Shown here one piece after another: positions 40,143 to 42,739 of a stretch of 64,000 nucleotides of DNA. Each line of letters starts with the position of its first letter. Positions within the stretch are counted from its first letter, which is position 1. Source of the DNA: Fistulifera solaris (taxonomy: Eukaryota > Bacillariophyta > Bacillariophyceae > Naviculales > Stauroneidaceae); assembly GCA_030295235.1 (NCBI GenBank), contig AP026127.1:560501-624500 (forward strand), read 5' to 3'. The notes below the pieces were generated by a model. It had not been told where the DNA came from, did not search any database, and was given only the letters and a program-made list of their open reading frames with translations. The position numbers and the translations under genes are program-made.

Positions 40143-42739
40143 ATGACGAAGACGGCAGCACTTACCATTCGCGCCGTAGTATTTTGCTTGTGGCTCATGA
40201 TACGAAGCATTCATTGTTTCCAACTCAAACAGACATCACCTCGTACACTGACTAGAATCATGTCCACCCAAATCTCCAATCTAATACCCAGCAATCAAGA
40301 GCTGGTGCAACAGCGATTGCAGGTAGCGCGCGAAAAGCGAGCAGCACGCACGCGGTCGATTCAACAAATCCAGGAACGGAATATGCATCTCAAAAACATA
40401 CTTCATTCCAACCAAACAGTACCCATGTATGCGGTCAAAGTCACCGTTTGTGATGAGTTGAGAGACGAACTCAAATTGAGTGGACGGGAAAAGAGAGGAC
40501 GCGTGTTCTTTGAATCACAGTCCGACGCGGTGCGATCCTTGAAAGGACTGCGGTTTGAATTGCATGCCTTCTTTCGGGCGTTACGAAAAGGGAGTTTTAT
40601 GTTGTCGGCTGGATATCCCTTGGTAGAAGAAGATGGGACAATCAGCAGCAGCAAGACCGTGGATGATGTGTTATGGAAGATTGAATCCGATCAAGACGTG
40701 ATTGATACGTTCCAGAAAGCTGATTCGTTTTTCCAAGACAATACTTCTACTTTAAAACGACCGTCAATTGTAATCAAAGTACAAAAAGATCCGAATGCTG
40801 CTCCACCGCCACCTCCTCCCGCATACCTGCAAAATATGCCCGATCCGGCTAGCAGCCCGACGATAACTATGCTATCGTTCTACTCGTTTCCTCCTGGAGG
40901 AGTGGCTAATCCGGAAGACTTTGCGAATCTGTTGCGGAAAGCATGGAAGCCCTTTCAAGCCTTGGGTCGTATTTACGTCGCAAGGGAAGGTATTAATGCT
41001 CAAATGAGTGTTCCAACCAATGTATTGGACAATTTTATGGCATGCTGTCAAAGTATTCCTGAGTTGGGATCGTACATGGAAAATGGAATCAATATTGACC
41101 CCATTCCGTTGACACGTGACGAATTTGCGACCGCAGGAACACCCGCGGCAGGTGGTGAGCCCGCACCACCGTTCATGGGTCTCCACGTCCGCGTGCGCCG
41201 ACAGATCGTGGCCGATGGTTTGGACGAGTCGTTGGATTGGCAATCTGCGGGATATGACATGCCGCCCCTGGAGTGGCATCAAAAATTAAAGGAAGAAAAG
41301 GATAATCTGGTCCTTTTAGATTGTCGCAATACATACGAGACCGACGTCGGTCGCTTTGAAGGAGCAGAACCGTTGGGAACGGAAAACTTTCGAGACAGCT
41401 GGGCCGTTTTGGAAGATCGTCTCAAAGACCTTCCTAAAGATACCCCTATTTATGGTTATTGCACGGGTGGCATTCGATGCGTCAAAGTTGGCGCTTATGT
41501 GACACAAAAGATGGGCTTTAAGAATTTCACTCGTCTCGCTGGAGGTATCGTAGCGTACGATCGAACATTACAAGAGGAAGCTCCAACAGAAGAACCACTT
41601 TTTAAAGGCACCAATTTTGTCTTCGACGGGCGTCTAGGTCGACCTATTACAGAAGATTCACTGGGAACTTGTTTAACATGCGGAGGAGAGACATCTTTGG
41701 TGAGCAACTGTCGCAATGAGAACTGTCACAAACGTATGATTCAATGTGAAAACTGCAGGACTTCATTTCTGGGAACTTGTTCCGATGCGTGTCGACATCG
41801 CCTAGTTCGAGGAACTTCTGTCTCTATTACATCGCGACCAGAGGAAAGCAAAGTGTCGTTCAAAAATCTAGAGGACTATAGCTCGGGACACAGTTCGCCG
41901 ACGCCCACTGTGTACAAAGAGATCGAGTTCAATACCAAATCGCTTATTCCTTCTGGGTCCCATATGATATCAGGAGACGCTCAAGGTCGTCTACTGGCAC
42001 AACTTACCTCCATGACACGAGAAGGGCGTGTGTTGGAGCTCGGGACATTTACCGGGTACAGCACGATTTGTCTCATCGAGGGAGCAGGGAACGTGGCCAA
42101 GATAACGGGGCAAAAGGTACCAGAGAATCTGGTCCATTTGTGCTGACGATGGAACGAGATTCAAAAGCATTCAATGTTGCTACTGCTCACGTCAAGGCTG
42201 TGGCTGAACACGGTTTATTTGAAGCGGGCGCAGAAGCGATATGCAGCTTCCGGGGAGCCGATGTTCCATCTATAACGTCAAGCACTGTATCATTGTTGTA
42301 TGAAGAGTCGGTTGGTGTCGAACTTCGTCGTGTCTCGGATGCCCTGGCTGCCGTTGAAAGCATTGCAAATGGAGCAGAGGAGGATCTCTCTGCTTTCGAT
42401 CTGGTCTTTGTTGATGCGGACAAAACACGTTTACTGGACTACGTAGAGGCATGCTTGTTGAACGATCGTGTTTTGAAGAAAGGGGGTCTAATTGTTGTAG
42501 ACAATGTTCTCTGGAAGGGTTTGGTTTTGGATGCCAGTCGACACGATAGCTTCTCCTCGGCATCCGATGACGATGACGAGGATTCCGATGAAGAAACAGC
42601 GGAACTCCGCAGGAATCGACGAGCTAGAAAGCTAGCTAACAAAATGCATAGATTCAATGCAGCAATTGCCCAAGACAAGCGCGTTGAAGTATTGGTAATT
42701 CCAGTGCGGGATGGTTTAAGCGTCATCCGAAAAAAGTAA
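40143..42739 (+). CDS. TrhO (UPF0176) tRNA uridine hydroxylase fused to a TrmR-like O-methyltransferase
   Basis: About 866 residues. Residues 1-25 are a signal peptide (AVVFCLWLMIRSIHCF), with Phe near the cleavage point as in plastid presequences. Residues 60-230 form an unassigned domain ending in a poly-Pro linker (PPPPPP). Residues 240-560 are a full TrhO: an N-terminal acylphosphatase-like part (GRIYVAREGINAQMS), a rhodanese part with the catalytic loop YCTGGIRCVK, and the Cys-rich tail CLTCGG...CRNENC. Residues 600-866 are a Methyltransf_3 domain: VLELGTFTGYST (SAM site), FDLVFVDADK (metal) and LIVVDNVLWKG. TrhO makes ho5U34 in tRNA; the bacterial O-methyltransferase TrmR turns it into mo5U34. 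The frame changes at A4 42112-42115 inside the methyltransferase; one more A gives GQKGTRESGPFVLTMERD. No intron. Confidence 0.9.

Follow-up and report, generated by a model that had tools for sequence, protein, structure and literature searches.

A TrhO–methyltransferase fusion gene in the diatom Fistulifera solaris as a candidate two-step enzyme for wobble-uridine modification in an organelle

Results

A TrhO block and a methyltransferase in one gene

We analysed a 64,000-nucleotide stretch of the genome of the diatom Fistulifera solaris (the window), and the subject here is one gene within it, at 40143..42739 on the + strand. Its protein carries a leader, an N-terminal domain of about 120 residues, a complete TrhO and a Methyltransf_3 domain, in that order (Table 1). 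The gene is a fusion of TrhO and Methyltransf_3. An all-frame reading with a Pfam scan places UPF0176_N, Rhodanese and Rhodanese_C, all above the Pfam cut-offs, in a 667-residue open reading frame (ORF) at 40143-42146 (+). The same ORF holds the first third of Methyltransf_3, narrowly below its cut-off (21.9 bits against 22). The remainder of this domain (79.7 bits) is found in the frame 42068-42739, and the two halves of the methyltransferase sit in different frames. An earlier reading made without database searches (the sequence-only reading) had described a complete TrhO block with a CTGGIRC loop, followed by a methyltransferase with the motifs LELGTFTGYST, FVDADK and VVDNVLW. The domains and all of these motifs are present as it described.

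Table 1. Features of the fusion gene, with positions in the window
Feature	Position	Strand	Basis
N-terminal leader, residues 1-39	40143..40259	+	sequence; hydrophobic signal-like stretch then ..SIHC-FQLKQTSPRTLTRI..
Second in-frame ATG	40260..40262	+	start of deposited F. solaris protein model
N-terminal domain, ~120 residues, motifs REKRGRVF, SDEDV..F..A, KRPSI	40428..40790	+	conserved in 16 diverse chosen members
UPF0176_N, acylphosphatase-like domain of TrhO	40866..41207	+	Pfam PF17773, 55.9 bits
Rhodanese domain of TrhO	41271..41561	+	Pfam PF00581, 37.5 bits; alignment to E. coli TrhO
Active-site loop CTGGIRC (E. coli C200-C206)	41460..41480	+	invariant in 55 members of alignment A1
Rhodanese_C, Cys-rich domain of TrhO	41604..41795	+	Pfam PF12368, 61.5 bits
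Methyltransf_3 first part, 667-residue ORF frame	41892..42116	+	PF01596 positions 4-73, 21.9 bits; six-frame search 24.5 bits
SAM-binding loop LELGTFTGYST	42033-42065	+	sequence
One-base frame change	42110..42122 (near 42116)	+	common to C7 and C8 copies, absent from P0001
Methyltransf_3 second part, up to stop codon	42117..42739	+	PF01596 positions 101-204, 79.7 bits
FVDADK	42407-42424	+	sequence, second Methyltransf_3 part
VVDNVLW	42494-42514	+	sequence, second Methyltransf_3 part
Basic segment RRNRRARKLANKMHRFN, loop before last strands	42608..42658	+	charge comparison over five groups; comparable to KRRRRLVAKIDEYN of TrmR
SAM, S-adenosylmethionine.

The frame change is most likely an assembly indel

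The assembly comprises 61 contigs totalling 51.7 Mb, and matching genes turn up on paired contigs (for example C7/C8, C21/C22 and C38/C39). We read pairs such as C7/C8 as homoeologous copies. The window gene is the C7 copy; a second copy lies at C8:491843-494443, and the one-base frame change in the methyltransferase is common to both. A deposited F. solaris protein, P0001 (828 residues), is the best homologue found: it matches 93% of the window ORF at 96% identity and is closest to the C8 copy. It is uninterrupted across the place of the frame change, where it reads ..GQKGTRESGPF.., and it has none of the single-base gaps of the C7 and C8 copies. Because P0001 and the transcript-derived relatives described below read through, the frame change is most likely an indel of the assembly, and the single chain of the sequence-only reading is supported in relatives. 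The C8 copy carries two further single-base gaps, making three frame breaks relative to P0001. Since these extra gaps are without counterpart in P0001, they point to assembly error as well. Judging by this copy, the assembly overall may be rich in indel errors.

Five stretches with intron-like ends would restore the frame: four of the GT..AG kind (11, 32, 47 and 56 bases, of which the 56-base one gives a stop) and one GC..AG (14 bases). A mini-intron or programmed frameshift was set aside, because P0001 and its relatives keep the residues that such introns would remove and because the stretches are only 11-56 bases long.

The fusion occurs widely in diatoms and is already in print

A protein search, in which 8000 candidates were scored, gave 763 homologues at E up to 0.001. 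Looking among them for TrhO joined to Methyltransf_3, as the sequence-only reading had proposed, we found, from precomputed Pfam domains, that 106 of the 120 best homologues carry Rhodanese_C and Methyltransf_3 in one protein. Six of these 106 have MMETSP, a transcript-derived source; the 14 without Methyltransf_3 may be cut-short sequences. The fusion is not a chance event, since so many of the best homologues carry both domains. The diatom names given by the sources include Fistulifera, Amphora, Cylindrotheca, Seminavis, Nitzschia, Epithemia, Stephanocyclus, Mayamaea and Thalassiosira profunda, and the bolidophytes Triparma laevis and T. verrucosa are also among the homologues. By these domain annotations, the fusion is widespread among diatoms and is shared by Triparma. 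One record labelled Alexandrium (Alexandrium tamarense), P0095, resembles a typical diatom fusion, and a mislabelled or contaminated record would be our guess.

Phytophthora sojae, P. ramorum and Phaeodactylum tricornutum are stramenopile eukaryotes. A fusion of yceA (TrhO) with trmR was reported in these three by Sakai et al. (2019, PMC6599085), who used it as a clue to TrhO and term the carriers bacterial species. The fusion itself is thus already known, and the assertion that no such eukaryotic fusion had been described does not hold. The published fusion combines the same two enzyme kinds in one gene and includes a diatom; the available passages give no localisation, N-terminal domain, phylogeny or activity for it. 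Its occurrence in Phytophthora rests on that report, which also mentions TrhO homologues in vertebrates and other eukaryotes and infers a modification of the xo5U (5-hydroxyuridine derivative) type there. Besides Sakai et al., no paper on the fusion was among the literature matches listed, which were mostly judged by title and the start of the abstract.

Catalytic residues of TrhO are kept

The fusion aligns with E. coli TrhO (YceA) at 34.8% identity over 279 residues. It shares all three TrhO domains, the CTGGIRC loop and basic surface residues. Unlike E. coli TrhO, the diatom protein is fused to a methyltransferase, has an extra N-terminal domain and is encoded by a nuclear gene with a leader. 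To judge conservation we used an alignment, A1, of 55 members picked from the 120 best homologues, among those having the methyltransferase; all 55 match UPF0176_N, Rhodanese, Rhodanese_C and Methyltransf_3. CTGGIRC is kept in the fusion and is invariant in 55 of 55. Sakai et al. report that C200, T201, G203 and R205 of E. coli TrhO are essential, G202 and C206 dispensable, and the K112A and R114A mutants hardly or not active (PMC6599085). The counterpart of K112 in the fusion is R, invariant in A1; that of R114 is also R, conserved in at least 90%. The catalytic residues are thus kept, as the sequence-only reading had supposed. On architecture and residues, we class the window protein as TrhO-type, and its TrhO part would be expected to act as an O2-dependent hydroxylase making 5-hydroxyuridine (ho5U) at the wobble uridine, U34.

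Among 60 genomes from the order that includes Cnuella takakiae, identity to P0001 rises to 42% in the best TrhO matches, above E. coli, in a comparison that did not cover phyla systematically. A TrhO-domain tree had 27 rows, 8 of them under half filled, and only its rough message was used.

The methyltransferase has a basic segment and lies outside the TrmR clade in the best tree

The metal ligands D, D and N and the conserved Lys of class I O-methyltransferases, with ligands as given for Rv0187 (PMC6543040), are present in the fusion. DADK and DN are at least 90% conserved in A1. The fusion resembles B. subtilis TrmR (YrrM), the ho5U34 methyltransferase, in its Methyltransf_3 family, in its metal and SAM residues and in a basic segment before the last strands. 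It differs from TrmR in having DADK where TrmR has DAAK, an acidic insert, a fused chain and a separate place in the best tree. Catechol/caffeoyl-CoA-type enzymes (3cbg, 5lhm, 1sui and others) share DADK with the fusion and score higher than TrmR, but the five compared lack the basic segment. Against PDB profiles, the methyltransferase domain scores 85.5 bits with 3cbg, and 2hnk and 3tr6 are also ahead of TrmR (5zw3, 51.4 bits).

Before the C-terminal [FY]N motif, most fusion rows read [RK]xxRRARKLAxKMHxFN, where TrmR has KRRRRLVAKIDEYN. Mean net charge over 18 residues is +7.8 in the fusion (9 rows) and +3.5 in the TrmR clade (4 rows). Over the same residues it is -0.4 in other PDB enzymes (5), -1.0 in other bacteria (40) and -0.8 in the SAR11-type rows described below (9). 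This criterion was found by comparison here rather than taken from the literature; the count omits 3 of 52 bacterial rows without the motif and uses a crude segment-finding rule, with a fixed distance for 8k1f. The segment suggests RNA binding by the fusion. It is not a general mark of ho5U enzymes, since the TrhO-linked SAR11-type rows are without it.

To place the domain, genome contigs were scanned for relatives. The scan gave 55 loci, the first 18 listed being Bacteroidota at 27-33% identity. It searched for the stretches FxDADKTR and xVDNxLWK, which have no counterpart in TrmR-clade enzymes, so the sampling is biased and TrmR itself could not be found. Three short rows of the 55 loci were omitted, and a 72-row quick tree was cut to 54 rows by dropping two distant paralogues from the diatom's own genome and 16 rows that were near-copies or irregular. 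In the 54-row tree the nine fusion rows form one clade (100/100). This clade groups with 16 Bacteroidota rows (86/84, not starred), and in the best tree a starred branch (99/97) parts it from the clade of B. subtilis TrmR.

Constrained topologies were compared by the approximately unbiased (AU) test. Its groups were set after the first tree had been seen, except the catechol/caffeoyl-CoA (CCoA) group, which was named beforehand; the p values are uncorrected and come with a long-branch warning. A clade of the fusion with TrmR is not rejected (p-AU 0.283). A clade with four catechol/CCoA-type PDB enzymes (5lhm, 3r3h, 3tr6 and 1sui) is rejected (p-AU 0.009), and so is one with the SAR11-type rows (p 0.0009). 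The label "TrmR-like" given by the sequence-only reading therefore stands in part: the best tree puts the domain near Bacteroidota enzymes outside the TrmR clade, while a joint clade with TrmR is compatible with the data. The grouping with catechol or caffeoyl-CoA enzymes that the same reading had named as fatal to it did not arise, although raw scores to such enzymes exceed that to TrmR.

A methyltransferase gene abuts TrhO in SAR11-type genomes

In at least 8 of the 55 loci a TrhO gene, detected with a profile built from the diatom proteins, lies directly 3' of the methyltransferase gene; several loci end too soon to tell. The eight (L056, L058, L063, L064, L066, L071, L075 and L077) are Pelagibacterales or other alphaproteobacteria by their titles. 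We searched 78 genomes of the order of one paired locus (SAR11-type), counting matches above 100 bits as strong. A strong methyltransferase match is present in 38 of the 78, one of them split in two pieces, and in all 38 a TrhO match on that strand begins 2 to 8 bases after the methyltransferase match ends. Another 36 genomes have only a weaker methyltransferase match (67-87 bits), none adjoining TrhO among the tabulated matches, and four have none. TrhO is present in 70 of the 78. No such neighbourhood was among the matches listed from the 60 Cnuella-order genomes.

The pair resembles the fusion in linking the same two functions, as abutting genes. It is unlike the fusion in its reverse order, separate proteins, lack of the basic segment and different methyltransferase lineage. 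Because the basic segment is missing and a joint clade is rejected, the pair is an analogy rather than the same lineage, and it may serve as indirect support for a link between TrhO and a methyltransferase. The SAR11-type Methyltransf_3 gene before TrhO is itself a candidate ho5U methyltransferase outside the TrmR clade.

Leader and candidate tRNA substrates

Diatom plastid presequences have F at +1. By eye, the leader reads MTKTAALTIRAVVFCLWLMIRSIHC-FQLKQTSPRTLTRI, a hydrophobic stretch and then F. Leader and F are conserved in the C8 copy, the indel within the leader being 3 bases. The C7/C8 indels in the leader and just after it are 3 and 6 bases, which favours a leader that is coding and begins at the first ATG. 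Because the deposited F. solaris model begins only at the second ATG, the protein may also exist without the leader. Seventy-two sequences, that of the window gene among them, start with Met and have 85 or more residues ahead of the conserved domain; by the threshold set here, 43 of them have a hydrophobic stretch. A small residue and F follow that stretch in 24 of the 43, against 16.8 expected by shuffling. The leader looks as though it directs the protein to the plastid, on this weak statistic, and the organelle leader of the sequence-only reading becomes a possible plastid leader.

Plastid contigs were identified by their Photo_RC genes: C61 (116 kb) and C60, of which 20 of 233 kb were read. 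Within C61 and these 20 kb, U34 is present in every tRNA detected for Ala, Pro, Thr, Val, UCN-Ser and CUN-Leu, and the search gave no further tRNA for these boxes. The list is incomplete, because Asn and Ile-GAU tRNAs were not found either. All four codons are used in these boxes, with 3.8-5.3% ending in C and 4.6-11.2% in G (28 ORFs, 13254 codons). Contig C59 is presumed mitochondrial on its size and tRNA set only. In the 39.7 of 43 kb read, U34 also occurs in its tRNAs for Val, Pro, Ser(UCN), Ala and Leu(CUN); for the Thr box the search gave a GGU tRNA and no UGU tRNA.

Discussion

We propose that one chain probably performs both steps of 5-methoxyuridine (mo5U) synthesis at U34 of organellar tRNAs, most likely those of the plastid. 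The leader of the nuclear-encoded protein would take it to the organelle, most likely the plastid (step 1). The TrhO part would then use O2 to convert U34 to ho5U in NYN-box tRNAs, namely those for Ala, Pro, Thr, Val, Ser and perhaps Leu (step 2). The C-terminal metal- and SAM-dependent O-methyltransferase would methylate the new 5-OH, turning ho5U into mo5U (step 3), and the fusion would pass the tRNA between its two active sites. Once modified, U34 would help one tRNA to read all four codons of its box (step 4). Both activities, the step order, the compartment, the channelling and the decoding effect are predictions built on what can be read directly, namely the domains, the conserved catalytic residues, the single chain in relatives, the basic segment and the U34 tRNAs found. 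The two-step role put forward by the sequence-only reading remains the best reading, with both activities deduced from the domains and the kept catalytic residues.

Published data on chloroplast tRNAs bear on this proposal in both directions. According to a review (PMC8877259), chloroplast tRNAs for Pro, Ala, Val and perhaps Ser and Thr carry an unidentified modification at U34, a list that fits the NYN substrates of bacterial TrhO. The same review gives plain U34 in the Leu(CUN) and Gly(UCC) tRNAs and records that mass spectrometry detected no xo5U derivatives in Chlamydomonas; neither the plain Leu U34 nor the Chlamydomonas result fits. These two points weigh against our proposal, together with the following. 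The NCBIfam equivalog model for TrhO, NF001133, is narrowly missed (160 bits against a cut-off of 170), which lowers any claim of strict equivalence. The leader statistic is weak, 29 of the 72 leaders having no clear hydrophobic stretch, and the presumed mitochondrial tRNAs could be substrates too. Raw PDB scores and the starred branch set the methyltransferase apart from TrmR. The SAR11-type enzymes that adjoin TrhO lack the basic segment and are rejected as a common clade with the fusion, so that they support it by analogy only. No activity measurement for any TrhO–methyltransferase fusion was found in the literature.

Phytophthora has no plastid, and its fusion is a further point against a plastid placement. 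The fusion reported there (PMC6599085) is also a reason to consider the same two-step chemistry on mitochondrial or cytosolic tRNAs, or dual placement through the second ATG. The leaderless start of the deposited F. solaris model and the U34 of five presumed mitochondrial tRNAs also speak for this alternative. We consider it unlikely, though worth keeping in view: the hydrophobic leader and F are present in the window and in the C8 copy, the motif recurs in homologues above the shuffled expectation, and the presumed mitochondrial Thr box appears to be served by a GGU tRNA. It is less likely still that TrhO makes ho5U while the methyltransferase acts elsewhere, on a catechol, a small metabolite or another RNA position, so that the U34 product is not mo5U. 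Catechol-type structures do outscore the TrmR structure, and the best tree places the domain outside the TrmR clade. Moreover, the related enzyme Rv0187 methylates the ho5U nucleoside and catechol compounds, and is reported to show no significant activity on tRNA that contains ho5U (PMC6543040). Against this stand the conservation of the fusion in diatoms and Triparma, the absence of the basic segment from the compared catechol-type rows, the rejected clade with four catechol/CCoA-type enzymes and the pairing of a related methyltransferase gene with TrhO in SAR11-type genomes.

We give hardly any credence to the idea that the frame change is real, whether as a broken gene, an unusual mini-intron or two genes, so that TrhO and the methyltransferase do not form one functional chain here. 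Its presence in both copies of the assembly and the five frame-restoring stretches would fit such a gene. P0001 and the transcript-derived relatives, however, are uninterrupted and keep the residues that introns would delete, and the two extra C8 gaps absent from P0001 indicate assembly error.

The plastid proposal makes the probably plastid-directed fusion a concrete candidate enzyme for the unidentified chloroplast U34 modification in diatoms. If it is true, this would give a eukaryote an xo5U pathway whose enzyme is known; no such pathway is described in the literature found, though Sakai et al. suggest one (PMC6599085). A broader picture is offered tentatively, as less likely than not. In it, one imported chain would make mo5U34 in the diatom plastid, and either mo5U or ho5U would be the unidentified modification of quartet-box U34. 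The methyltransferase would stem from a Bacteroidota-like lineage outside TrmR, and ho5U methyltransferases would have arisen or diverged in three or more lineages (TrmR, the fusion and the SAR11-type pair).

N-terminal domain and other TrhO genes of the genome

The N-terminal domain of about 120 residues is conserved across 16 aligned diverse members, Triparma included. It has no significant Pfam or PDB match, and hhalign gives a probability of 0.7% against UPF0176_N. Its SDEDV..F..A motif recalls the acidic motif of PB1 domains, a weak hint: with the PB1 profile one of 16 members matches at E 0.16, which is not significant, no PDB match was obtained, and hhalign against two PB1 domains of the same genome gives a probability of 23% over 21 columns. 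The domain was not found in the open frames around 8 of 12 other Rhodanese_C places in the genome.

A second TrhO fusion lies in the C21:213396 region (L008:1-2607, - strand), with a counterpart at C22:204979. Here an open frame of at least 869 residues holds UPF0176_N, Rhodanese and Rhodanese_C and, behind them, PseudoU_synth_2 (54.7 bits). A PF01596 search of the genome gave Methyltransf_3 matches at Rhodanese_C places only for the window pair. The genome holds 14 Rhodanese_C matches, apparently seven pairs, which points to numerous TrhO-like genes in this diatom.

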